A program made the position numbers and the translations under genes. From the NCBI RefSeq assembly GCF_900475315.1, contig NZ_LS483369.1, positions 1,736,001 to 1,800,000 on the forward strand: 64,000 bases of DNA, given 5' to 3'. The notes under the pieces were generated by a model. That model did no database searches. It was given only the letters and a program-made list of their open reading frames with translations, and was not told the origin of the DNA. This DNA comes from Neisseria cinerea. Its GTDB lineage: Bacteria > Pseudomonadota > Gammaproteobacteria > Burkholderiales > Neisseriaceae. Positions 31,132-44,319 of the stretch are shown here, one piece after another. How positions within the stretch are numbered: the stretch's first letter is position 1; each line of letters begins with the position of its first letter.

Positions 31132-33924
31132 ATGGCAACCATTCACACCCTTCTCCTCGTCGACGGCTCTTCTTATCTCTACCGCGCTTATCACGCGATG
31201 GCGCAGTTGTCCGCGCCTGACGGTGCGCCGACGGGTGCGCTTTACGGCGTATTGAACATGTTGCGCCGGCTGCGGGCGGATTATGTGCATGATTATTGCG
31301 CGGTGGTGTTTGATGCGAAGGGCAAGAATTTCCGCCACGAGATGTTCCCCGACTACAAGGCGACGCGCCCGCCGATGCCGGACGATTTGCGCCCGCAGGC
31401 GGAAGCCTTGCCGGATTTGGTGCGGCTGATGGGCTGGCCGGTGCTGGTGATTCCGCAAGTCGAAGCGGACGACGTCATCGGCACTTTGGCTAAGATGGCC
31501 GGCGAAGCAGGTTGGAATGTGGTGGTGTCCACCGGCGATAAGGATATGGCGCAGTTGGTGAACGAGCGCGTGACGCTGGTGAACACGATGAGCGGCGAAA
31601 CGCTGGACATTGAAGGCGTGAAGGAGAAATTCGGCGTGCGCCCCGACCAAATCCGCGATTATCTCGCGCTGATGGGCGACAAGGTGGATAACGTGCCGGG
31701 CGTGGAGAAGTGCGGCCCGAAAACGGCGGTGAAGTGGCTGGAAGCCTACGGCTCGCTGGCTGGTGTGATGGAACACGCTGCGGAAATCAAGGGCAAGGTC
31801 GGCGAAAACCTGCAAGCCGCGCTGCCCCAACTGCCGCTTTCGTATGATTTGGTGACGATTAAAACCGATGTGGACTTGCACACCGAGCTTTCAGACGGCC
31901 TCGAAAGCCTGCGCCGCACTTCTCCGAAATGGTCGCAGCTTGCGGTCGATTTCAAACGCTGGGGCTTCCGCACTTGGCTGAAAGAAGCGGAAAGCCGTAT
32001 GCACGAAGCGGCGGACGGCGATTTGTTCGGCAGCGATACGATAGGCGAACAGGCGGCGTTGGACATGGAAACGTCGTCTGAAAGGCTACCTGAAAAAGCC
32101 GTTGCCCCCGAAAAGCTGGATTATCAAACCGTTACCACCGAAGCGCAGTTTGTCGCCTTGTTGGACAAACTGTCGCGGGCGGACGCCATCGGCATCGATA
32201 CGGAAACCACGTCCCTAGACGCGATGAACGCCGCGCTGGTCGGCATCAGCATCGCGTTCCAAGCAGGCGAAGCGGTTTACATCCCCGTAGGGCACAGCCT
32301 GACTGCCGCGCCCGAACAGCTTGATTTGCAATACGTATTAGGTCGTCTGAAACCGTATTTGGAAAACCCCGCCCTGAAGAAAATCGGGCAAAACCTCAAA
32401 TACGACCAACACGTTTTCGCCAACTACGGCATCGCCCTGAACGGCATTGCCGGCGACGCCATGCTCGCTTCCTACATCATCGAAAGCCATCTCGGACACG
32501 GCTTGGACGAATTGTCCGAACGCTGGCTGGGCTTGGAAACCATTACCTACGAATCGTTGTGCGGTAAAGGCGCGAAGCAAATCGGTTTTGCCGATGTCGC
32601 CATCGGGCAGGCGACCGAATACGCCGCCCAAGACGCCGATTTCGCCCTGCGCCTCGAAGCGCACCTGCGCGCGCAAATGGATGCCAAACAGCTTGAAATG
32701 TATGAAAAAATGGAGCTGCCCGTCGCGCAAGTATTGTTTGAAATGGAACGCAACGGCGTACAAATCGACCGAGCCGAACTCGCCCGCCAAAGCGCAGAAC
32801 TCGGCGCCGAGCTGATGAAGCTCGAACAAGAAGCCTACGCCGCCGCAGGCCAGCCGTTCAACCTCAACTCGCCCAAACAGCTGCAAGAAATCCTGTTCGA
32901 CAAAATGGGCATCCCCACCAAAGGCCTGAAAAAAACCGCCAAAGGCGGCATTTCCACCAACGAAGCCGTGCTCGAACAGCTCGCGCCCGACTACCCCCTG
33001 CCCAAAATCATCCTGCAAAACCGCAGCCTGGCGAAACTCAAATCCACCTACACCGACAAACTGCCCGAAATGATTTCCCCCAAAGACGGCCGCGTGCATA
33101 CCACCTACGCCCAAGCCGTCGCCATCACAGGCCGCCTCGCCAGCAACAACCCCAACCTGCAAAACATCCCCATCCGCACCGCCGAAGGCCGCCGTGTGCG
33201 CCGCGCCTTCACCGCACCGCAAGGCAGCGTCATCGTTTCCGCCGACTATTCCCAAATCGAGCTGCGCATCATGGCGCACCTCTCCGGCGACAAAACCCTC
33301 ATCGCCGCGTTCCAAAACGGCGAAGACGTACACCGCCGCACCGCCGCCGAAGTATTCGGTATCGCCCCTGAAAACGTCTCGTCCGAACAACGCCGCTACG
33401 CCAAAACCATCAACTTCGGCCTCATTTACGGCATGGGCCAATACGGCCTCGCCAAGTCATTGGGCATCGACAACATCTCCGCCAAAAACTTTATCGACCG
33501 CTACTTCGCCCGCTACCCCGGCGTCGCCGAATATATGCAGCGCACCAAAGAACAAGCCGCCGCCCAAGGTTTCGTCGAAACCCTGTTCGGCCGCCGCCTC
33601 TACCTGCCCGACATCCGCAACAAAAACGCCAACGCCCGCGCCGGAGCAGAACGCGCCGCCATCAACGCCCCCATGCAAGGCACCGCCTCCGACCTCATCA
33701 AACGCGCCATGATAGACGTGTCCCGCTGGCTGGTTTCAGACGACCTGAAAAGCAAACTGATTATGCAGGTGCATGACGAACTGGTGCTGGAAGTCCCCGA
33801 AGCCGAACTGGATTCGGTCAAAGAAAAACTGCCGCAGATTATGGCGAAAGTGGACGAAGGGATGTTGAAAGTACCGCTGGTGGCGGAGGTTGGCGTGGGT
33901 ATGAATTGGGAAGAGGCGCATTGA
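31132..33924 (+). CDS. polA: DNA polymerase I
   Basis: Repair and Okazaki-maturation polymerase. 930 residues. The 5' nuclease domain occupies about residues 1-290 (LLVDGSSYLYRAYHA, VSTGDKDMAQLV, MGDKVDNVPGV). The 3'-5' exonuclease domain keeps the DxE motif in GIDTETTSLDA, so proofreading is probably active. Polymerase motifs: A, SADYSQIELRIMAHL; B, RRYAKTINFGLIYGMGQYG; C, MQVHDELVLEV. Codon style changes within the gene: the first 1.1 kb uses G-ending codons. The segment between the foreign-dialect uptake sites at 32340 and 33735 is strongly C-ending. The last 180 bp return to the first style. This suggests a recombinant allele. Confidence 0.97.
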   Translation: MATIHTLLLVDGSSYLYRAYHAMAQLSAPDGAPTGALYGVLNMLRRLRADYVHDYCAVVFDAKGKNFRHEMFPDYKATRPPMPDDLRPQAEALPDLVRLMGWPVLVIPQVEADDVIGTLAKMAGEAGWNVVVSTGDKDMAQLVNERVTLVNTMSGETLDIEGVKEKFGVRPDQIRDYLALMGDKVDNVPGVEKCGPKTAVKWLEAYGSLAGVMEHAAEIKGKVGENLQAALPQLPLSYDLVTIKTDVDLHTELSDGLESLRRTSPKWSQLAVDFKRWGFRTWLKEAESRMHEAADGDLFGSDTIGEQAALDMETSSERLPEKAVAPEKLDYQTVTTEAQFVALLDKLSRADAIGIDTETTSLDAMNAALVGISIAFQAGEAVYIPVGHSLTAAPEQLDLQYVLGRLKPYLENPALKKIGQNLKYDQHVFANYGIALNGIAGDAMLASYIIESHLGHGLDELSERWLGLETITYESLCGKGAKQIGFADVAIGQATEYAAQDADFALRLEAHLRAQMDAKQLEMYEKMELPVAQVLFEMERNGVQIDRAELARQSAELGAELMKLEQEAYAAAGQPFNLNSPKQLQEILFDKMGIPTKGLKKTAKGGISTNEAVLEQLAPDYPLPKIILQNRSLAKLKSTYTDKLPEMISPKDGRVHTTYAQAVAITGRLASNNPNLQNIPIRTAEGRRVRRAFTAPQGSVIVSADYSQIELRIMAHLSGDKTLIAAFQNGEDVHRRTAAEVFGIAPENVSSEQRRYAKTINFGLIYGMGQYGLAKSLGIDNISAKNFIDRYFARYPGVAEYMQRTKEQAAAQGFVETLFGRRLYLPDIRNKNANARAGAERAAINAPMQGTASDLIKRAMIDVSRWLVSDDLKSKLIMQVHDELVLEVPEAELDSVKEKLPQIMAKVDEGMLKVPLVAEVGVGMNWEEAH
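32340..32351 (+). repeat. AG-mucDUS in polA
   Basis: AGGTCGTCTGAA, the uptake dialect of N. mucosa/sicca-type species, at the left border of the C-rich polA segment. Confidence 0.8.
33735..33746 (-). repeat. AG-mucDUS in polA
   Basis: The complement of AGGTCGTCTGAA, at the right border of the C-rich polA segment. Confidence 0.8.
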
Positions 33925-33969
33925 GATGTTATGGCGTTTAACAGATTGTTTTGGGAAAGGGATAAAGTA

Positions 33970-35961
33970 ATGAATGTTCAAGATTTAATTAAGGAAGGTT
34001 TAGCGTTATTCAATAACAAAAAATTTGACGAAGCGATTGAAAAGCTGAATCAGGCTTTAGATGGAATTGAAGATAAGGATAGCCAAATTGAGGAGCAAAA
34101 CGATATTCAGTTTTTGCTAGGATGCTGTTATTTCGAACAGGCGAGGAAATCCAAAGGAGAGATTGCGATTAAGTTGTTCGATCAGGCAGTTGAACACTAC
34201 CAACAACAATTGCGGCTTGCCGAACAGCTGGAAGACAAGCAAAAAATCCTTCAAGAACAAATATGTGCCCAATGTTTGTTAGGCCGTTGCTATTTAGAGC
34301 AGGCAATGAAAGCTGAAGGCAAGGAGTCGGAACAGTTATTTGGACAGGCAGTTGAACACTACCAACAACAATTGAGTCTTTCCGAACAGCTGGCAGACAA
34401 GCAAAACAGCCTTCAACAACAAATCTATGCCCAATCTTGGCTTGGCCTCTGCTATTTAGAGCAGGCGATGAAAGCCAAAGGCAAGGGCAAGGAGTCGGAA
34501 CAGTTATTTGGACGGGCAGTTGAGCATTTCCAACAGCAATTGAGCCTTGCCGAACAGCTGGAAGATAAACAAAACAGCCTTCAACAGCAAATCAATGCCC
34601 AATCTTGGCTTGGTCGTTGTGATTTCGAACAAGCAATTGCTATTAAAGATAGTAAAGATAATTCCAAAATTTTGTTAAAAAGAGCTACTGGACACTTTTT
34701 GTATGTTTTGGAACAACTGAAACAATTAGATGATGAACTGAAAAAGAAAAAAATCCAAAGGAAAATTTATCGGTATTTAAAGGAAATTTATTTTCTTAGA
34801 GAAATATGGACGCTTTACTTTAAGTGGAAAAAGCAAGAAATACAGGAAAATTTATTTGAAAACCGAGAGGGTAATTTAACCGATGCTATCTCAACTATTC
34901 TGGCGGTTTTAAATATTCCGCCTTTCGAATCGGATAAGATTCCTTTTGCCCATTACACTTCGCCTTCAGTATGCGAAAGATTATTCGGCATTGTCAGCGA
35001 TCAAACTAATGATAAAGCCAATGATCAAACCGATGATCAAACCGATGATAAAGACCCTGTTGACAGTAACAAAGTCAGTCCGATGAGAATCGGTAGCTCC
35101 ACTTATATGAATGACCCGACTGAAGGAGAAGGGCTGTTGGAGTTGCTGAACCTGCAGGATTTGGAATTGGAAAACAAGGCAGATTGCCCCGCCTATAATG
35201 CTTTCTTTACCTGTTTCTCCAGCCGCGTAAACGATTTGAATCAGTTCCGTTTGTATGGCAAAGAAAACGGCGTGGAAGCATCGGGCTGCTGCTTGGTATT
35301 TAATAAAAGTGGGGATTGGTTGAAAGAGCCTGATGTTTCTGCTTCGTTCAAAAGTTTTACAAATAAACAGAATGAAGGTTTCAACGAACCAATAGAGGCA
35401 GATGTAACGGGTTCGAAAGATGAAAACCTGCCGCTTTATCAGGTAGCTTATATCGCTTATTACGATGAATATATTGCTAAGGAAAAATGTGGGAAATGGT
35501 TGTTGAATAAGAATAATCAAAGTTTTGGTATCCGATTAAAGCCTGTAGGAAAAAATCCAAGTTTGTATCAATTGCGTATCGACAAGCTTGAAGAAGCGTT
35601 GATAGAGTTAATGGAAAAATCCAATAATATCAGCGATGAAGACAAAAAAGCTTTGGAGTATATCCGCTATCTGTTTAAAGATTTTGCTTTCCGCGACGAG
35701 GAAGAGTTCCGCCTGCTGAAAATCGAACAAATCGGTTCTAAAGAAATTAAATATTGTCAGAATACAAAATCCGTCTATCTGCCTTATGCCGATATACGCG
35801 ATATTGTGGATGAAGTGATTTTGGGGACGAATTACGAAAAGAGCGGAAAAGAGCGCAAGGCGGAAGTGTTTCAGCACTTAATGCGGAAATATTATCCAAA
35901 CGTTAAAGTTTCCCGCTCGTCACTGCCGATTAATGCCAATCCGCCGATTAAGAAGGATTAG
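33970..35961 (+). CDS. TPR-repeat protein with C-terminal DUF2971-like domain
   Basis: 663 residues from MNVQDLIKEGLALFNNKKFD. Residues 1-230 are tetratricopeptide-like helices, including three to four near-identical 54-56-residue units (LGRCYLEQAMKA, LFGQAVEHYQQQ, LAEQLEDKQ). A charged helical linker follows, and then a low-complexity stretch (DQTNDKANDQTDDQTDDKDP). From about residue 315 a domain begins with FAHYTSPSVCERLFG and later SSTYMNDPTEGEGLLELL, the pattern of DUF2971 proteins, continuing to EEEFRLLKIEQIG. There is no signal peptide. Low GC compared with polA, 45 nt upstream. Function unknown; TPR arrays usually mediate protein binding. Confidence 0.8.
   Translation: MNVQDLIKEGLALFNNKKFDEAIEKLNQALDGIEDKDSQIEEQNDIQFLLGCCYFEQARKSKGEIAIKLFDQAVEHYQQQLRLAEQLEDKQKILQEQICAQCLLGRCYLEQAMKAEGKESEQLFGQAVEHYQQQLSLSEQLADKQNSLQQQIYAQSWLGLCYLEQAMKAKGKGKESEQLFGRAVEHFQQQLSLAEQLEDKQNSLQQQINAQSWLGRCDFEQAIAIKDSKDNSKILLKRATGHFLYVLEQLKQLDDELKKKKIQRKIYRYLKEIYFLREIWTLYFKWKKQEIQENLFENREGNLTDAISTILAVLNIPPFESDKIPFAHYTSPSVCERLFGIVSDQTNDKANDQTDDQTDDKDPVDSNKVSPMRIGSSTYMNDPTEGEGLLELLNLQDLELENKADCPAYNAFFTCFSSRVNDLNQFRLYGKENGVEASGCCLVFNKSGDWLKEPDVSASFKSFTNKQNEGFNEPIEADVTGSKDENLPLYQVAYIAYYDEYIAKEKCGKWLLNKNNQSFGIRLKPVGKNPSLYQLRIDKLEEALIELMEKSNNISDEDKKALEYIRYLFKDFAFRDEEEFRLLKIEQIGSKEIKYCQNTKSVYLPYADIRDIVDEVILGTNYEKSGKERKAEVFQHLMRKYYPNVKVSRSSLPINANPPIKKD
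34111..34640 (+). repeat. Tandem 162-168-bp repeats in the TPR gene
   Basis: Equivalent positions (TATTTAGAGC or TATTTCGAAC) recur at 34129, 34291, 34453 and, varied, 34621, so the period is 162, 162 and 168 bp. Units two and three are nearly identical at the DNA level. Confidence 0.8.
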
Positions 35962-35965
35962 CCAG

Positions 35966-36040
35966 CAGTAGGTCGGATACTTGTATCCGACAAAAGCCTG
36001 CCATCTCAAAAGCCGTCGGATTCGATAATCCGACCTACTG
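35966..36040. repeat. REP-like element pair with 13-bp terminal inverted repeats
   Basis: CAGTAGGTCGGAT at the left and ATCCGACCTACTG at the right. Inside are two hairpins, GTCGGATAC-TT-GTATCCGAC and GTCGGATT-cgat-AATCCGAC. It lies 5 bp past the TPR gene stop. Confidence 0.75.
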
Positions 36041-36110
36041 AAACTGGGTATCGGGTGTAGGGTGTGTGCGGCACGCACGCATGCGGTGTTTGAAACCCAA
36101 AAACCCATCC

Positions 36111-36154
36111 AAGGTCGTCTGAAAAACCTGTTACAGAGTTTTTCAGACGACCTT
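36111..36154. terminator. Inverted AG-mucDUS hairpin
   Basis: AAGGTCGTCTGAAAAAC and its exact complement, 17-bp stem and 10-nt loop. It is the terminator design of the window but in the N. mucosa/sicca uptake dialect. Confidence 0.75.
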
Positions 36155-36232
36155 TATTCTTCCTGCCGACAGGCTACAATCACGGGCGCAGTTTCCTTCA
36201 TGGGTTCAGTACGACCTAGGTATGCGGTTTTA

Positions 36233-36244
36233 AGGTCGTCTGAA
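36233..36244 (+). repeat. AG-mucDUS upstream of mscS
   Basis: AGGTCGTCTGAA in the mscS leader. Confidence 0.8.
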
Positions 36245-36315
36245 ATATAGACAGGCTTGCCGCAAACCGAATAATATCCGAATTTCCAATCATCCTTTAA
36301 CCAGAAATAAAAATC

Positions 36316-37161
36316 ATGAATTTCAATCTTGAAAACCTCTCTTCATTCTCAGGCTGGGAAAGCCTTATTGAAACCGGCATGGCATTCGGTACCAACCTCG
36401 TTGCCGCGCTGGTGATTTTCTTTGTCGGCAGATGGATAGCCTCCCGCCTCGTTATTTTGATGAAAGCCGCGCTGACCCGCGCCAAAGTAGATAGGACGCT
36501 CGTCAGCTTTCTGGGCAACGTAGCCAATATCGGCCTATTAATCCTGATTATTATTGCCGCGTTGGGCAAGTTGGGCATTCCGACCACGTCGGTTACCGCA
36601 TTAATCGGCGGCGCGGGCTTGGCGGTAGCTTTGTCGCTGAAAGACCAACTGTCGAACTTTGCCGCCGGTGCGCTGATTATCCTGTTCCGTCCGTTTAAGG
36701 TTGGTGATTTCATCAAAGTCAACGGTTTCGAAGGTACCGTGAGCGAAATCAAAATGGTGCAGACCGCTCTGAGTACGCCGGACAATGAAGAGGTCATCCT
36801 GCCCAACAGTATTGTCATGAGCAACAGCATCATCAACCGTTCCTCTAATCCGCTGTGCCGCGTACACGTGGTAGTGGGTGTAGATTATGCTTGTGATTTG
36901 AAGGAGGCTAAGGCAGCTGTTTTGAGGGCCGCCACCGAGCATCCTTTATATGTGCAGACACCAGGCAGGGAAGCGGCAGTACACATTACTAATTTGGCCG
37001 ACAGCGCCATCGAAATCACACTTTGGGCGTGGACGAACGAAGCCGATTTGGGCGCGTTCCGCTTCGGTTTGAACGAACAAGTGGTTGAAAACCTGCGTGC
37101 AGCACAAATCAATATCCCCTTCCCACAGCGCGATGTACGCATTATTACGCCGAAAGACTGA
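36316..37161 (+). CDS. mscS: Small-conductance mechanosensitive channel MscS
   Basis: Homoheptameric inner-membrane channel that releases solutes on hypo-osmotic shock. 281 residues. TM1 and TM2 lie at residues about 22-95. The pore helix TM3 has the Gly/Ala-rich pattern ALIGGAGLAVALSLKDQLSNFAAG at about residues 95-118. The beta domain carries FRPFKVGDFIKV and LPNSIVMSNSIINRS. The length matches E. coli MscS (286). Its leader carries foreign-dialect uptake sites, and an AT-DUS terminator lies downstream. Confidence 0.95.
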   Translation: MNFNLENLSSFSGWESLIETGMAFGTNLVAALVIFFVGRWIASRLVILMKAALTRAKVDRTLVSFLGNVANIGLLILIIIAALGKLGIPTTSVTALIGGAGLAVALSLKDQLSNFAAGALIILFRPFKVGDFIKVNGFEGTVSEIKMVQTALSTPDNEEVILPNSIVMSNSIINRSSNPLCRVHVVVGVDYACDLKEAKAAVLRAATEHPLYVQTPGREAAVHITNLADSAIEITLWAWTNEADLGAFRFGLNEQVVENLRAAQINIPFPQRDVRIITPKD

Positions 37162-37211
37162 GTTTAATACGGGTAAGCTGAATTAAAACCTTATTACGTA
37201 TCCGGTATGCC

Positions 37212-37273
37212 CGTTAATCGGTAAAAAATGCCGTCTGAAACCTAAATTATCGGGTTTCAGACGGCATTTTGTT
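37212..37273. repeat. Left 62-bp direct repeat flanking the hpu island (contains DUS terminator)
   Basis: Identical to 42818-42879 except one T/C change. It includes the inverted DUS pair starting AAAAAATGCCGTCTGAAACC, which also terminates mscS. Confidence 0.9.
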
Positions 37274-37477
37274 TTTAAAATCCTATCTGATTGGGAAATG
37301 CCGGACTGATTTCAGCAAAATATTACCCGACTCCCGCAAATTTCAACGGATTGTATGAAATGCCGTTTAAATTGGAAGGAAGGGAGCATTCGCCAACCAA
37401 ATCTGATTTATCAAGTTTCCCATAGGCTCTCATTTGCCGGACGTTGCCTGCAAGGGGAGGTAACCTTTGGCATCATA
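37274..37477. other. Non-coding stretch between direct repeat and hpuB
   Basis: About 200 bp with no gene that I recognise. It may contain the hpuB transcription end, but no clear hairpin is seen. Confidence 0.35.
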
Positions 37478-39895
37478 TTAGAATTTTGCTTCTAAAGTCA
37501 GATTGTAACTTCTGCCTGGAGAAGTAAAACGTTGTATACCGGCATGGGTTTTGTTGTCGACGCGGTTAACTGTACCGAATTCTCGGATGCTGCGCAGCGA
37601 TTCCCAAGTGTAGTACTGCTTGTTGGTAATGTTGTACGCGGCAGCGCGGAGCGTAACCTGTTTGCCGATGTTGAGGTAGGCGGCAAGGTCGAAAAGTGTA
37701 TAGGCTTTGCTGTGCTTGGCAAACGGCCACGGGTTGTTCAAATCATCGCTGCTGTGGACGGTGTCAGACGGTTTTTTAGCTGCGGTGTGTGTCAGGTACG
37801 CATTGAGGCCCCAGCGTTTGGAAGGAGCGTCGTAGCCCAGATTGTAAACGGCAGACCACGGAGAAAGGGCATTAATAGGGGTTTCTTGTCCGTTGTTCTG
37901 CTTGGCCTTGCCTTTGATGTAGCTGACGTTGACACCAGCGTGCGTGCCTTGCGGCAAACCGATGCTGTCGAGATTCCATGTGCCGTTAAATTCCAAACCT
38001 TTCACCCATGCCGAGGAGCGGTTTTGGTTTTGCCAGACGGGCGAGCTGACCAATGCAGTACCGTCGGAAATTGGAGCGTAGTTGGGGCTGTTGGGATTAT
38101 CGGAAGATACGCCCATGTAGGTCAGTTCGATAAAATTACGGTAGCGGGTTTGGAAACCGGAGAATTTAAAGTTTCCTGCTTTGCCGCTGCCGGCAAGTCC
38201 CAGCTCAAAGTTTTTGGCGGTTTCTGCCTTCAGGTTGGGGTTGGCTTTAAGGTAGAAGTCAGGATGCGGGAACAAGAGCCAGGTTTCATCCGAAGTCGGC
38301 GCGCGGAAGCCTGTACTGTATTTCGCCAGAAGATTCAGACGCGGCGTGAATTTCCAGTCTAGTCCTAAGCCGTAGCTGAAACCGCTGTGTGTACGGGAGC
38401 TGCCAAGATGGGGAAGTTGGCTGCGAATAGCGGTGGAGTAGTTAGGGTTGTCCTTGGCTTTGCTGCTACTCCTATCGTAACGAACCCCGGCATTGAGGCG
38501 GTATTGGCTGCTGTCGCCGAATTGGAAGGTGTTGTTCCAGTAGGCAAAACGGTTTTTAGACGAGCTTTCGACCAGCATAGTCAATTCTTGGTTGTTGGAC
38601 GTTTGATATTTCGGGTCGTATAGGCGTACCCAATAGCTATGATCTCTATTGCCGTTGTCGTTTTGGGAACCACCCAATCCGTATTGCATTGCCCATACTA
38701 ATTTGGAAAAGTCGATTTGTTTTTCGGCATCGGCACCGAATTGGGTATTTTTTTGACGGATGTTGCGGAACATATGGTACACGTCGCTGTTCACACCGCT
38801 GCGATTATAATCCGTCGGCAAATCCCAGGTCCAAGTGCTCATGTCGATGGTTTGACGGTCGTAACGCAGGTTGAGGCTGTCCCATGGTCCTTTTTCAAGT
38901 TGGTTTTTATATTCAAAACCGATGCGTTTGCGGTAGGAAATATCTTGACGGGAACGGGTATCGCCCAATGCCTCGCCTTTCCAGTTTGCCGCCCACATAT
39001 TAGATAATTCGGTCGTCGTGCGGTCGGTGCGTGAATCTTCGTAAATCCAGCCGATACGGTTTTGATCGTTGAAGTTGTAACCCAGCTTGAACAGGGTGCT
39101 TATGTTTTCCCAATTTTGAGGGTCAGGTTTGCTGCGCGCTATGCCGCGGCTGCCGTAGTTGGTACTGCCGGCATTCGGACTCCAGCTTTGTTTGTTGTCG
39201 GTGATGATGGTATCGGCAGCGTCGCTGTTGTTTTTGGTTTCTTTACCGAAACGGCGGGTATAAACCATCAATGCATCCAGACCCAGCCAAGTTCCTGCGG
39301 CGGTTATGCTGCTGAATTTCTGGCTGTTGCGTCCGATATAGCCGCCTTTAATGCCCAAATGGTAGGGCTTTTCTTCGGAAACATAGTCGCTTGCAGATTT
39401 GGTTTTATAGTTGACGGCACCGCCCAATGCACCGCTGCCGGATTTGAGCGAGTCCGCACCTTTGGTGAGGGTTACTTCCGAGAAATTTTCAGGTTCGGAA
39501 GTGTTGCGGTTTGCATTGAAGTTGCCGTATGCACCGAACAACTCTTGGAATGCTTCAGACGACCTGCTTTCTGCTTGTGCCAGTCCGTCCACATTGATGG
39601 CGACGCGGTCTTTGTCGACACCGCGTATGGTAAAACCGTTGGAACCGGAGCGCCCGCCTTCGACGACGCTGATGCCCGGATCGTAGCGCACCAAGTCGCT
39701 TTCGTCGGATACCATCTGTTTGTCCAATGCCTGACGGTGGATTTTCTCTTCGCCGAGTTTCTGGACTTTGCGGCCGCCGATGACTTTGATTTCATTCAAG
39801 CTTTGATGTGCTTGTGGTGCGGGGTCGGCAGCGAAGGCAGGGAAAGTTTGGCTGATAATGGCTGCCAGCAGTACGGGTTTGAAGGGGAAGGACAT
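37478..39895 (-). CDS. hpuB: TonB-dependent haemoglobin-haptoglobin receptor HpuB
   Basis: Outer-membrane TonB-dependent receptor that, with lipoprotein HpuA, extracts haem iron from haemoglobin and its haptoglobin complex. 805 residues. The signal peptide ends ..FPAFA; the TonB-box-like LNEIKVIGG is near residue 33. The plug domain carries SGSNGFTIRGVDKDRVAINV and KSGSGALGGAVNYKT. The 22-strand barrel ends in the typical C-terminal Phe (LEAKF). The conserved segments match meningococcal HpuB closely as I remember it, while loops near residues 230-260 and 300 differ. Transcribed after hpuA with a 55-nt gap. An in-frame AG-mucDUS lies at 39554. Confidence 0.96.
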   Translation of the reverse strand: MSFPFKPVLLAAIISQTFPAFAADPAPQAHQSLNEIKVIGGRKVQKLGEEKIHRQALDKQMVSDESDLVRYDPGISVVEGGRSGSNGFTIRGVDKDRVAINVDGLAQAESRSSEAFQELFGAYGNFNANRNTSEPENFSEVTLTKGADSLKSGSGALGGAVNYKTKSASDYVSEEKPYHLGIKGGYIGRNSQKFSSITAAGTWLGLDALMVYTRRFGKETKNNSDAADTIITDNKQSWSPNAGSTNYGSRGIARSKPDPQNWENISTLFKLGYNFNDQNRIGWIYEDSRTDRTTTELSNMWAANWKGEALGDTRSRQDISYRKRIGFEYKNQLEKGPWDSLNLRYDRQTIDMSTWTWDLPTDYNRSGVNSDVYHMFRNIRQKNTQFGADAEKQIDFSKLVWAMQYGLGGSQNDNGNRDHSYWVRLYDPKYQTSNNQELTMLVESSSKNRFAYWNNTFQFGDSSQYRLNAGVRYDRSSSKAKDNPNYSTAIRSQLPHLGSSRTHSGFSYGLGLDWKFTPRLNLLAKYSTGFRAPTSDETWLLFPHPDFYLKANPNLKAETAKNFELGLAGSGKAGNFKFSGFQTRYRNFIELTYMGVSSDNPNSPNYAPISDGTALVSSPVWQNQNRSSAWVKGLEFNGTWNLDSIGLPQGTHAGVNVSYIKGKAKQNNGQETPINALSPWSAVYNLGYDAPSKRWGLNAYLTHTAAKKPSDTVHSSDDLNNPWPFAKHSKAYTLFDLAAYLNIGKQVTLRAAAYNITNKQYYTWESLRSIREFGTVNRVDNKTHAGIQRFTSPGRSYNLTLEAKF
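39554..39565 (-). repeat. AG-mucDUS in hpuB
   Basis: The complement of AGGTCGTCTGAA inside the plug-domain coding sequence. Confidence 0.8.
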
Positions 39896-39950
39896 TTTTT
39901 GCCTCTTAAGATGTACTGATTATCGGTTTATCGGGATGATTGACGTGCGG

Positions 39951-40943
39951 TTACTTGCTGACAGGTGTCAAACTTGTATCCGTCGTATTGCGGTCGTCAT
40001 CATTCTTCACGCCGCCGAATACGGTATCCAACGATTTATCGGCATCGAAGGTTACTTTGCCGCCTATGTTGACTTCTGTTTTATCGCCGTCAAATTGACC
40101 GAAGAATTTTCCTTCGACTTTTCCGTTTTTACCGTCTGATTCGGCAGTGCCTGAGAAATCAACGCCGTTGATGCCTACATCTTTCATTACGACGTCCGGA
40201 CCGTAATCCGCATTACCCAAAATCGTGCCGCCAAGTTTGTTGGTGTTGAAATTGGCTGTCAGCAGTGAAAGCTTGGGAGCGGTCTTTTCAGACGACTTAT
40301 AGGGGTTTTTGGGCTCGTAGGTAGAGGTAACGAAATTGCCGTTGCGTACGCGTACTGCCCAAACTTCGTATGTAGTCTTGCCTTTTGCCACAGTACTGTC
40401 AGACGGAGTGTAATAAGACGGTTTCGCCGTTCCGACGGGTTTGCCGCCGACAAACAGGTCTGCCGTGCCGTCTGCATTTATCCATGCGCCGAATTTGAGG
40501 TGGTCCTGTTTGGTTGCTGGGGCATCAGTAAATTGTCCGGAACTGCTGCAGCAGACAAACAGCTTGCCGCCTTCGGATAAAGGCTGACCTTCGTGGCGGG
40601 TACGGACTACATAGGATGGGCTTGAGTAGGAAGGGATAATCGGGTCGGAATATGAGCTGATGTTGTAATAGTTGCCGGAAGGGGTTTGGTAGACATATTG
40701 TTTATCGGTATAGCTGCCCCATGATGTTTTCACTTCGAGTTCTGCTTCATGCAAGCTGCCGCCTTTTCCGGAAAGGGTGTTGATGGTTTTTATTGCACTG
40801 CTTTCATCGCTCAACTTGATATTAGCGATGGGCTGCGCCGTTGGTATGGAAACAGGAACTTTCGGCTCGGATGCACCTCCTCCTGCACAGGCAGTCAGAA
40901 TCAGAGAGGTGGCCGCAGAAATTGCGGATATGTTGATTTTCAT
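39951..40943 (-). CDS. hpuA: Haemoglobin-haptoglobin utilisation lipoprotein HpuA
   Basis: Surface lipoprotein partner of HpuB. 330 residues from the ATG with complement 40941-40943, with GTGAG upstream. Type II signal peptide with lipobox LTAC at about residue 18, followed by AGGGASE. The C-terminal half has the acidic turns and Gly-rich strands of the SLP barrel type (KVEGKFFGQFDGDKTEVNIG). In pathogenic Neisseria a poly-G tract after the lipobox makes hpuA phase-variable. Here the three Gly codons are GGA GGA GGT, so there is no homopolymer. It is the first gene of hpuA-hpuB and is divergent from slam2, whose product exports HpuA. Confidence 0.95.
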   Translation of the reverse strand: MKINISAISAATSLILTACAGGGASEPKVPVSIPTAQPIANIKLSDESSAIKTINTLSGKGGSLHEAELEVKTSWGSYTDKQYVYQTPSGNYYNISSYSDPIIPSYSSPSYVVRTRHEGQPLSEGGKLFVCCSSSGQFTDAPATKQDHLKFGAWINADGTADLFVGGKPVGTAKPSYYTPSDSTVAKGKTTYEVWAVRVRNGNFVTSTYEPKNPYKSSEKTAPKLSLLTANFNTNKLGGTILGNADYGPDVVMKDVGINGVDFSGTAESDGKNGKVEGKFFGQFDGDKTEVNIGGKVTFDADKSLDTVFGGVKNDDDRNTTDTSLTPVSK

Positions 40944-41264
40944 AACAAATCTCACTTATTTAGTATTAATGTTTTATGAAATAATGATAAGTATTACTAA
41001 TATTATTGAGATATTGTGTAATAATTATGCAGTTTTGGCAATATCTTTACGGGTTTTGAAAGGGAATATTAGGAAGTAGGTTACTTGATGATTTGGTGTT
41101 GGAACTTTACTTCAGTTGTTTGATTTGATGTTGCTATTCCATGGTGGATGGCGAATATTGGGTGATAGTGTGGATTAAACTATTGCTTTGGATTTGCAAG
41201 ATATATTTTAGGGGTATTTGGTGTATTGATGCGATGTACACACATATATTTCGGATGATTTTGA
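40944..41264. promoter_or_regulatory. hpuA-slam2 divergent promoter region
   Basis: 321 bp, very AT-rich compared with the window. It holds the Fur-box-like site. Individual -35/-10 boxes cannot be chosen with confidence because of the composition. Confidence 0.5.
40980..40998 (-). promoter_or_regulatory. Fur-box-like site upstream of hpuA
   Basis: A 19-mer with ATCATTAT on the minus strand; 13 of 19 consensus positions match by eye. It lies 37 nt before the hpuA start. Fur control of hpuAB is established in N. meningitidis. Confidence 0.6.
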
Positions 41265-42809
41265 ATGTTAAGAATAAAACAAAAAATGTTTTTGGCATCT
41301 TTATGTTGCCTGTTGCATTCCGTAGTTTTGGCTGAATTGCCCAAAGGCGGTATCCGGCGGGATGCGCCTTCTCAGGATGCTGCCGTACAGGTGCAGCAAA
41401 AACAATGGCTGGATATTTTGTCTGGAGAAGAAAGGTCGTCTGAAAAGGATGAAAATGTTGCTAAACCGAATGTAATCGGAGATGAGTTTTTAGCGGCAAA
41501 CCCGCGTATTCTTGAGAGCGCGCTAATTCAAGCGCTTAACGGCAATAGCGCGGATTTGGTTTTTTCGCTTGCCGCCCTTTACCGCAAACAGCCCAACCAT
41601 AATCCAAAGCTGATTGCACGTGCTGATGCTTTGCTGGCAAAGTTGAAAGGACGGACTTCCGAAGCGGTCGAGCGTTATCGTACCCTTTATGAATCCGACG
41701 TTTCAGACGACCGCATATTGTTGGATTTGGCGGCGGCAGAGTTTCAGGATTATCGTTTGAGCGAGGCGGCGGCGCATTTCCATCATGTCGCACAACGCGA
41801 TATACCCGCCCCCGTTTTGGAAAACGTCAAACGTTTTCAAGAAGCCGTCAAGCAGCAGACAGAATGGAAATGGTCCGGCGGAATCAGCCCCGTACATAAC
41901 AACAATGCCAACAACGCTGCTCCGCGTTACTGCATCGAAACAAGGGGGCAAACCGCATGCAGTGTTACCTTACCTGTCAGTGCCAACGGCTTGAATTACG
42001 AATTGAACACCGAAAAACTCACCCCATTGTATGGGCATCACGCCGTCAAATTCCGCGCCAACCTCAACGGCACAAGCTATTTTTTCGACCGGAAATCGGC
42101 TTATGACGATGCGTTCGGCAGGGCTTATTTGGGCTGGCAGCGCAAGGATGGCAAACAAACCGTCAGCGTTTTACCGTTTTATCAGGCACAGTTGGCGGGC
42201 AGCAGCGAATTTGACGGCAAAAAAGAAAACAACCGCCGCGCCGTGCCTTATATGCTGGCACACGGGGTCGGCATTCAGGCTTCATATACGGTCAGGTTCG
42301 GACGGGATATGCAGTTTTACAGTTCGTTGGAACGATATCGGCGGTACCATAGGGAGAATGCCCGTGCGGAACGTAATGATGGTTGGCAGGACAGTCTGTA
42401 TGTGTCGTTGGCGCGGCGTTTCGGAAATTCGGCAACTGTGTTTGGCGGCTGGCAGTTTGCACGGTTTGTTCCGGAACGCGGAATAGTGCGTGGCGCGGTT
42501 AACAATGCGGCGTACAACCGTAACAGTGTCAATGTGGGCTGGGTACGGCAATGGCAGGAATTGGGTGGTTTGAACAGTCGGATTGCCGTGTCTTATGCCC
42601 GCCGCAATTATAAGGGTATGGCCGCATTCGCTACTGAGGCGCAGCGTAACCGTGAATGGAACGTATCGTTTGGATTGAGTCACGACCGTTTGTCCTACAA
42701 GGGTATTGTACCGACGCTAACGTACAGTTTCGGTAAAACGAGCAGCAATATGCGGTATGCGGAACGCCGGAATAGCCAGATATTGTTCGGGGCGGATTGG
42801 CGGTTTTAA
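41265..42809 (+). CDS. slam2: Surface lipoprotein assembly modulator Slam2 (DUF560 family)
   Basis: Outer-membrane protein needed to deliver HpuA to the cell surface; Slam2 is known to be selective for HpuA. 514 residues. The signal peptide ends LHSVVLA at about residue 23. Residues 30-200 are TPR-like helices (LIQALNGNSADLVFSLAALY, AVERYRTLYESD). From about residue 205 there are alternating aromatic strands of a 14-strand barrel, ending in GADWRF with C-terminal Phe. The start has no clear ribosome binding site; an ATG seven codons later is possible. AG-mucDUS lies at 41433. Adjacency to hpuAB supports Slam2, not Slam1. Confidence 0.92.
   Translation: MLRIKQKMFLASLCCLLHSVVLAELPKGGIRRDAPSQDAAVQVQQKQWLDILSGEERSSEKDENVAKPNVIGDEFLAANPRILESALIQALNGNSADLVFSLAALYRKQPNHNPKLIARADALLAKLKGRTSEAVERYRTLYESDVSDDRILLDLAAAEFQDYRLSEAAAHFHHVAQRDIPAPVLENVKRFQEAVKQQTEWKWSGGISPVHNNNANNAAPRYCIETRGQTACSVTLPVSANGLNYELNTEKLTPLYGHHAVKFRANLNGTSYFFDRKSAYDDAFGRAYLGWQRKDGKQTVSVLPFYQAQLAGSSEFDGKKENNRRAVPYMLAHGVGIQASYTVRFGRDMQFYSSLERYRRYHRENARAERNDGWQDSLYVSLARRFGNSATVFGGWQFARFVPERGIVRGAVNNAAYNRNSVNVGWVRQWQELGGLNSRIAVSYARRNYKGMAAFATEAQRNREWNVSFGLSHDRLSYKGIVPTLTYSFGKTSSNMRYAERRNSQILFGADWRF
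41433..41444 (+). repeat. AG-mucDUS in slam2
   Basis: AGGTCGTCTGAA, in frame, coding a loop after the signal peptide region. Confidence 0.8.
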
Positions 42810-42817
42810 CGGTTAAA

Positions 42818-42879
42818 CGTTAATCGGTAAAAAATGCCGTCTGAAACCTAAATCATCGGGTTTCAGACGGCATTTTGTT
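42818..42879. repeat. Right 62-bp direct repeat flanking the hpu island (contains DUS terminator)
   Basis: 61 of 62 positions equal 37212-37273. It ends slam2 and precedes mnmE by 34 bp. Confidence 0.9.
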
Positions 42880-42913
42880 ATAATTGCCGCTGTTTTGATT
42901 TTCAGGGGGTCTT

Positions 42914-44260
42914 ATGTCGGACAATGATTCGACCATTGCGGCGGTGGCGACTGCGCCCGGGCGCGGCGGCGTGGGCGTGGTTCGTGTGTCGGGGAAAAAC
43001 CTGTTGCCGATGGCGCAGGCTTTGTGCGGGAAAACGCCTCTTCCGCGCGTGGCGACATATGCAGATTTTAAAGATGTGAACGGCGAAGCAATCGACAACG
43101 GCCTTTTGCTGTTTTTTGCTGCACCGGCAAGTTTTACGGGTGAAGATGTCATCGAACTTCAGGGACACGGCGGGCCGGTAGTGATGGAGATGCTGCTGAA
43201 CCGCTGTTTGGAATTGGGCGCGCGCCTTGCCGAACCGGGGGAGTTTACGAAGCGTGCGTTTTTAAACGATAAATTGGATTTGGCGCAGGCGGAGGGCGTG
43301 GCGGATTTGATCGATGCGTCGAGCCGGACGGCGGCACGTTTGGCATTGCGTTCGCTCAAGGGTGATTTTTCGCGGCGGATTCACGGTTTGGTCGATGATT
43401 TGGTTACGTTGCGCATGCTGGTTGAGGCGACGTTGGATTTTCCCGAGGAAGACATTGATTTTCTCGAAGCGGCGGATGCGCGCGGCAAATTGGAAGGTTT
43501 GCGCCGTTCGGTCGATGAGGTGCTGGCAAATGCCCGGCAGGGTGCGATTTTGCGCGAGGGCATGAATGTGGTGCTGGTCGGTGCGCCGAATGTGGGTAAG
43601 TCGAGCCTGCTGAATGCTCTGGCGGGTGACGAAGTGGCGATTGTTACCGATATTGCGGGTACGACCCGTGATGCGGTCAGGGAACGTATCCTGATTGACG
43701 GTGTGCCGGTGCATATTGTGGATACGGCAGGTTTGCGCGAGACGGATGACGTGGTCGAGCGTATCGGCATCGAACGCAGCCGCAAGGCGGTATCGGAGGC
43801 GGATGTCGCGCTGGTGTTGGTCGATCCGCGCGAGGGTTTGAATGAAAAGACGCGGATGATTTTGGATACGTTGCCGTCGGATTTGAAACGCATTGAAATT
43901 CACAGCAAGTCGGATTTGCACACGGGTGCGGCGGTTGCTTTTGAAACGGGTGCGGATACAGTGATTCCGTTGTCGGCGAAAACGGGTGCGGGTTTGGATG
44001 TGTTGAGGCAGACGCTGTTGCGCGAGGTTGGCTGGCAGGGCGAGGGCGAGGGGCTATTTTTGGCGCGTGCGCGGCATTTGAACGCGCTTAAGGCTGCGCA
44101 AGGGGAATTGGAACTGGCGGCTTTGTGCGGCAACGGTCAAATCGAGCTGCTTGCGGAACATTTGCGCTTGGCTCAGGTTGCTTGCGGCGAAATTACGGGG
44201 GAATTTACCGCAGATGATTTGCTCGGCGTGATTTTTTCGAGATTCTGTATCGGCAAATAG
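42914..44260 (+). CDS. mnmE: tRNA modification GTPase MnmE (TrmE)
   Basis: Partner of MnmG in U34 modification of tRNA. 448 residues, the usual length. N-terminal folate-binding domain ([20 protein letters not shown]). The inserted G domain (about residues 216-375) has G1 [15 protein letters not shown]2 DIAGTTRD and G3 [10 protein letters not shown]. The C-terminal helix ends in the catalytic CIGK. It lies immediately right of the hpu island and ends at a DUS terminator shared with the convergent pabB-pabC fusion. Confidence 0.97.
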
Positions 44261-44280
44261 GGTAGAAACGCCGGTTGATA

Positions 44281-44319
44281 ATGCCGTCTGAACCTTGTGG
44301 AAACAGGTTCGGACGGCAT
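44281..44319. terminator. DUS-like bidirectional terminator, mnmE/pabB
   Basis: ATGCCGTCTGAACCT and AGGTTCGGACGGCAT form a 15-bp stem with one wobble; T-run follows. Confidence 0.7.

Follow-up and report, generated by a model that had tools for sequence, protein, structure and literature searches.

How three genes for haemoglobin-iron use came to lie between two nearly identical hairpins is the question raised by the hpuB-hpuA-slam2 locus of the Neisseria cinerea genome under study (G000). Each hairpin is an inverted pair of DUS, elements already known for steering DNA uptake and for ending transcripts; in the accessible text of two studies, inverted DUS pairs at gene ends are taken as transcription terminators (PMC2397512, PMC3630211). 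An earlier, sequence-only reading proposed that the two copies are the ends of a mobile cassette. The window, the whole stretch of DNA that was analysed (64,000 nt, positions 1-64,000), was therefore compared with other Neisseria genomes, one per species, 46 in all with G000 included.

The repeat pair

The left copy (37212-37273) lies between mscS on the forward strand and hpuB on the reverse strand, and the right copy (42818-42879) lies between slam2 and mnmE, both on the forward strand; neither copy is assigned to a strand itself. On recomputation, the positions, the direct orientation and the identity at 61 of 62 positions given by the sequence-only reading were exact, and an inverted pair of the 12-mer DUS was present in each copy as described. 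Pfam analysis over the module and its neighbours identified a TonB receptor, HpuA (PF16960), SlipAM/TPR_Slam, MnmE and MscS; the three genes said to be bracketed by the repeats do lie between the copies with Pfam support. The long, near-identical direct repeats at both ends that an excisable cassette should have are present.

The 62-bp match breaks off sharply on both sides. Between the left copy and the hpuB stop codon there are 204 bp, and the right copy starts 8 bp past the slam2 stop and ends 34 bp ahead of the mnmE start. Each hairpin folds strongly and in a terminator-like manner on either strand, with energies of -29.3 to -31 kcal/mol (-31 and -29.3 kcal/mol for the left copy) and z-scores of -9.3 to -10.6. 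In everyday life, each copy is most likely an ordinary bidirectional terminator.

Kinship of the hairpin

The native gene at the right end of the module, mnmE (42914-44260, forward strand), was used to define the close relatives. The MnmE protein has 90-91% amino acid identity to those of G005, G014, G019, G022 and G039, whereas none of the other listed full-length matches exceeds 81%; these five genomes were therefore taken as the close relatives of G000.

A search for the 36-base hairpin with up to 3 mismatches gave 8 matches in 7 of the 46 genomes. The left and right copies were the only two in G000, with no third locus within 3 mismatches. Four close relatives (G014, G019, G022 and G039) had one match each with 1 mismatch, all of them beginning 17 bp beyond the hpuB stop and in the same orientation relative to hpuB as the left copy. 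The single matches in G013 and G036, each with 3 mismatches, were at other loci. The left copy agrees with the hpuB-downstream terminator of the four relatives at 34 of 36 hairpin positions, and the right copy at 35 of 36. Judged by this kinship, the 62-bp repeat is the hpuB terminator of the clade, duplicated. The possibility that the sequence is instead a common terminator found at many unrelated loci, which the sequence-only reading had named as an argument against itself, was rejected, since at up to 3 mismatches the 46 genomes held only the two copies in G000, the sites after hpuB and the two 3-mismatch singles.

The surroundings of the left copy are less regular. The hairpin stands 212 bp from the hpuB stop in G000 versus 17 bp in the relatives, and the 204-bp spacer that separates the left repeat from the end of hpuB (37274-37477, no strand assigned) had no match at E 0.001 in the 45 other Neisseria genomes. 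In N. bergeri (G005), the hairpin is absent after hpuB and other sequence is found there.

Gene order around mnmE

In four of the five close relatives (G005, G014, G022 and G039), the gene order is mnmE(+), hpuB(-), hpuA(-), slam2(+), pabBC(-); in G019, slam2 still adjoins pabBC and the other side is rearranged. In G000, the cassette precedes mnmE, which is followed by a terminator and then by pabBC with no gene between the two. This terminator (44281-44319, no strand assigned) occupies the site of the cassette in the four relatives and is identical to the slam2-ending terminator of N. bergeri. More distant genomes have other neighbours. The homology of G000 to the relatives begins at 42827-42834, depending on the relative, stops at 44259 and resumes at 44277, and both of these joints fall at DUS hairpins.

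At the position of the right copy, upstream of mnmE, a DUS-type hairpin is present in all five close relatives, with a different loop and, in G014 and G019, with one base altered in the left arm. In this upstream region, the full 260 bp can be aligned among G005, G019 and G039, whereas only 68-87 bp align when these are compared with G014, G022 and G000, starting from the first DUS base or at most 8 bases off. Differing left neighbours thus meet the hairpin at the DUS, indicating that it has been a joint more than once. The neighbour in four of the five relatives is a large autotransporter gene of one cluster (L179:14571-19001, L199:3560-8584, L200:11940-16350 and L202:3406-7755; Peptidase_S6 by Pfam in the two tested), the region in G022 lying outside the stretch covered, while G000 has the TPR gene, mscS and hpu. 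In G014, the autotransporter gene is one small gene away from polA.

Upstream of mnmE, a TATAAT box directly abuts the 3' arm of the hairpin, both in the window (42860-42914) and in L179, L181, L199, L200 and L202. Terminator and promoter may overlap at this site. A consensus promoter scan gave sites no more numerous than in shuffled sequences, and none before mnmE.

The position of alignment ends was surveyed in stretches of five genomes and the window. Of 314 ends, 74 fell within 25 bp of a DUS, versus a mean of 16.0 and a maximum of 28 in 1000 random draws, and outside ORFs of at least 250 codons 41 of 200 were near a DUS, versus a mean of 14.9 and a maximum of 30 at random places; ends that recur across several genomes lack independence, and alignments tend to be broken off at DUS that both sequences carry, and the counts are only a hint that alignment ends may cluster at DUS.

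Origin of the module and its flanks

The gene hpuB (37478-39895, reverse strand) encodes a TonB-dependent haemoglobin-haptoglobin receptor of Family A type, as identified by Pfam and NCBIfam, with 94% amino acid identity to G007, G023, G026 and G036 versus 77-78% to the close clade. The adjacent hpuA (39951-40925, reverse strand) encodes a Family A Slam-dependent surface lipoprotein (PF16960, NF041636) with 92-93% identity to the same four Family A genomes; the query stretch starts at the first upstream ATG-type start in the open frame, and the listed ORF opens at 40955. As given in the accessible text of the HpuAB family survey, Family A has an hpuA without poly-G and 53-56 nt between hpuA and hpuB (PMC3783016). 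The locus likewise has no poly-G at the hpuA start, and 55 bp separate the hpuA stop (39951) from the hpuB start (39895).

Family A sequence does not extend through the whole module. Within hpuB, a native (Family B) patch of about 70 bp was located at 37616-37685 on the reverse strand (gene nt 2211-2280), in which 17 informative sites in a row are of B type; the sites before it are A, as are 6 of the 8 after it. The first 1000 nt of slam2 (41265-42264, forward strand) are of Family A type, with 89-97% nucleotide identity to Family A in 100-nt windows and informative sites that are also A. Towards the 3' end of the gene the informative sites switch from A to B, and the last 545 nt (42265-42809, forward strand) are mostly native (Family B), following about 100-200 nt in which the two types are mixed. 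In a tree of the slam2 3' end, Family A and two outgroup genomes were split from G000 and Family B with a support of 0.999. Like both repeats, the 3' third of slam2 looks native to the clade. On the hpuB side, the 70-bp patch is the only native sequence in the gene end and most of the last informative sites are Family A, which counts against this account of native ends.

A block of polA, a TPR gene and mscS (31146-37136, forward strand) precedes the left repeat and is of mucosa/sicca type. The polA gene has 95-96% nucleotide identity to G018, G021 and G026 and 92%, together with part of the TPR gene, to N. sicca (G023), and 91% over 1160 bp to the close relative G014. The order polA-TPR-mscS is also found in G023, and the three genes look to have been imported as one block. 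The TPR gene (33931-35961) has internal repeats that align at several sites in the counterpart from N. sicca, as in copy-number variation.

The DUS dialect was used as a further indicator of origin. The imported stretches (31146-37211 and 37274-42264) contain 1 canonical DUS and 10 mucDUS versus 68 and 5 in the rest of the window (Fisher p 1.1e-8). According to the portions of two reports that were available, N. sicca and strains of N. mucosa have this variant as their main DUS (PMC2911385, PMC3630211). Sampled stretches of G007, G018, G023 and G026 had 62, 65, 81 and 42 mucDUS, respectively, versus 2-4 canonical DUS. The stretches of G021 and G036 were canonical (44 to 4 and 79 to 7), indicating that these genomes are not typical donors despite their close polA or hpuB match. 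The gene interior and, separately, the polA-mscS block appear to have come from the mucosa/sicca (mucDUS) group, the donor being identifiable by group only. Both repeat copies carry canonical DUS and so look like native islands beside imported DNA. Import of the whole island from the mucosa group was rejected on the basis of the mosaic sites in slam2 and the canonical DUS in the repeats.

Alternative explanations

In the sequence-only reading, a 5.6-kb cassette entered, as a circle or by transformation, at a single repeat between mscS and mnmE and can leave by one crossover. The geometry of the repeats is right for such a cassette, and its right end is at a DUS hairpin native to the region upstream of mnmE. 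However, mscS belongs to a separate import and is not a native neighbour of mnmE. In all 22 other genomes with an ortholog (at least 58% amino acid identity), the two genes are either on different contigs or separated by 33 kb or more, so that mscS is no conserved neighbour. The single 62-bp copy joining mscS to mnmE that the proposal predicts was found neither at these orthologs nor in the hairpin search of the 46 genomes, in which no hairpin at mnmE outside G000 matched within 3 mismatches, the close relatives having another loop there. No empty site was seen among the genomes compared, and the interior is foreign, whereas both the repeats and the end of slam2 have a native look. Part of the proposal stands, as the joints do coincide with DUS terminators; the island would not, however, have arrived as a unit with its own repeats, its interior having apparently been swapped in between native-looking ends. 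The extension of the proposal to the patchy presence of hpuAB was not borne out. The hpuB gene was present in 19 of the 46 genomes, G000 included (E ≤1e-100), and none of the 18 other hpu loci had comparable repeats: their 800-bp flanks shared ungapped direct matches of at most 8-16 bp, the exception being G041 with 29 bp of a plain DUS hairpin, in a comparison that farther or gapped repeats would escape. Furthermore, the meningococcal losses published in the accessible text of one study occurred via dRS3 or IS (PMC3352162). On balance, entry of the module as a ready-made cassette is unlikely.

The possibility was also considered that the repeat records no cassette movement at all. Terminators of different origin, one belonging to hpuB and the other to slam2 or mnmE, could have been made alike by gene conversion between their DUS arms. 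A hint of such exchange comes from N. polysaccharea (G022), whose hairpin upstream of mnmE (contig C106, about 300-350; L181) has 25 bp, 13 of flank plus the DUS arm, in common with its own hpuB terminator, as though sequence had passed between them; a 22-bp exact core of this flank and DUS occurs once elsewhere, in G014, and is thus rare but not unique. Conversion alone leaves the changed gene order unexplained, and the identity extends 16 bp to the left of the hairpin, into sequence in which no homology between the partners would be expected. We give this explanation a modest chance. A resemblance arising by chance or selection would require no event, since the DUS arms are common to all strong terminators of this kind. 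However, 210 comparisons among the window's 15 inverted DUS pairs, in both orientations, gave a best score of 41/62 for any other two hairpins. Genome-wide, the left and right copies matched with 108 bits, and the next-best match among the 40 of 754 candidates scored had 69.8 bits over about 44 bp. The loop, moreover, is found at no third locus in G000 within 3 mismatches and recurs with 1 mismatch in the 45 other genomes only after hpuB. Chance was rejected on the window comparison and the bit scores, and such a resemblance is now hardly credible. A one-step permutation of mnmE and the cassette via a circle was likewise rejected, as it predicts mixed loops and a long post-mnmE stretch of the relatives, both of which are absent.

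Discussion

We consider it fairly probable, on comparative sequence evidence, that the repeat is a duplicated native hpuB terminator, the scar of recombination at DUS terminators that left the cassette across mnmE from where it lies in four of the five close relatives, with Family A alleles swapped in. From the kinship of the repeat, the changed gene order, the joints at DUS and the mucosa/sicca interior, all seen in the sequence, we infer that the cassette would have changed sides of mnmE by homologous crossovers between direct DUS terminators. A possible route is a tandem duplication of mnmE and the cassette followed by two deletions; alternatively, a circle may have been excised and have re-entered. 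The repeat would have been left as a scar, perhaps evened out by gene conversion, and transformation would have replaced the interior with Family A alleles between the native ends. Loop-out of the present 5.6-kb module by one crossover, leaving mscS-repeat-mnmE, is possible, and plausible for repeats of 62 bp. Strict crossover schemes predict mixed loops, one of them of the type upstream of mnmE. Both copies have the hpuB loop and a common left flank of 16 bp, and conversion or an unseen step is therefore needed. The greater distance of the hairpin from hpuB, with its unmatched spacer, and the N. bergeri locus, which has no hairpin at hpuB, also count against the duplicated-terminator explanation.

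The minimal mobile element (MME) of Neisseria was reportedly introduced by Saunders and Snyder in 2002. As described in the available parts of two reports, an MME has conserved flanking genes, a content that differs between strains or species, and transfer by homologous recombination only (PMC8627216, PMC9778887). The locus resembles an MME in that polA, mnmE and pabBC enclose different genes depending on the genome: upstream of mnmE either TPR-mscS-hpu or the autotransporter gene is found, and the interval between mnmE and pabBC is occupied by hpu in four relatives and is free of genes in G000. Homologous exchange is again indicated, with no integrase or IS inside the cassette, and no transposase or integrase was identified by Pfam and NCBIfam among the five genes of 36316-44260. 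Three features set the locus apart from an MME: the cassette has the opposite position relative to one flanking gene, direct copies of its own terminator enclose it, and exchange also appears to have taken place inside the cassette genes.

In N. meningitidis, HpuA/B is given as a repeat-flanked genomic island, GI 56, without IS (PMC8627216). An hpuAB island, flanking repeats and the lack of IS are shared with the present locus, but the repeat here is a DUS-pair terminator at another locus; the type of the GI 56 repeat is unstated in the accessible part of that source. Repeats at the meningococcal hpuAB are reported in the excerpted text of PMC3352162 to be dRS3, Correia and REP elements, and loss of the genes there to occur by dRS3 recombination or by replacement with an IS1106-like element. 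Loss by recombination between repeats on both sides is the parallel to the present locus, in which the flanking repeats are DUS terminators, not dRS3 or IS1106-like elements. According to the sections available of the HpuAB family survey, only hpuAB is found in isolates of N. cinerea, in one of which it is of Family B, and hpuAB has often been transferred between species (PMC3783016). In the present locus, a breakpoint inside slam2 and a B patch inside hpuB were located. The accessible portions of the studies of DUS terminators treat abundance, tract length and dialects and describe no direct pair bracketing a module (PMC2397512, PMC3630211). No account of a direct repeat of DUS terminators around hpuAB was found in the accessible text of the non-subscription literature on hpuAB, MME, DUS terminators and slam2.

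A broader and doubtful proposition is that DUS-pair terminators might be general recombination joints for shuffling, relocating and losing modules, with duplication of a terminator as a bystander effect, and that hpu may have moved across mnmE in this way and may still be excisable as a circle spread by transformation. If it is true that DUS hairpins are joints for module movement, the choice of DNA for uptake would be coupled to the place where it lands. The mnmE gene is a clear test case, being flanked on both sides by a DUS-type terminator and on one side or the other, depending on the species, by the haemoglobin-iron cassette. The apparent swapping of receptor alleles inside native ends would mean, in addition, that the address of the module and its protein content evolve apart.
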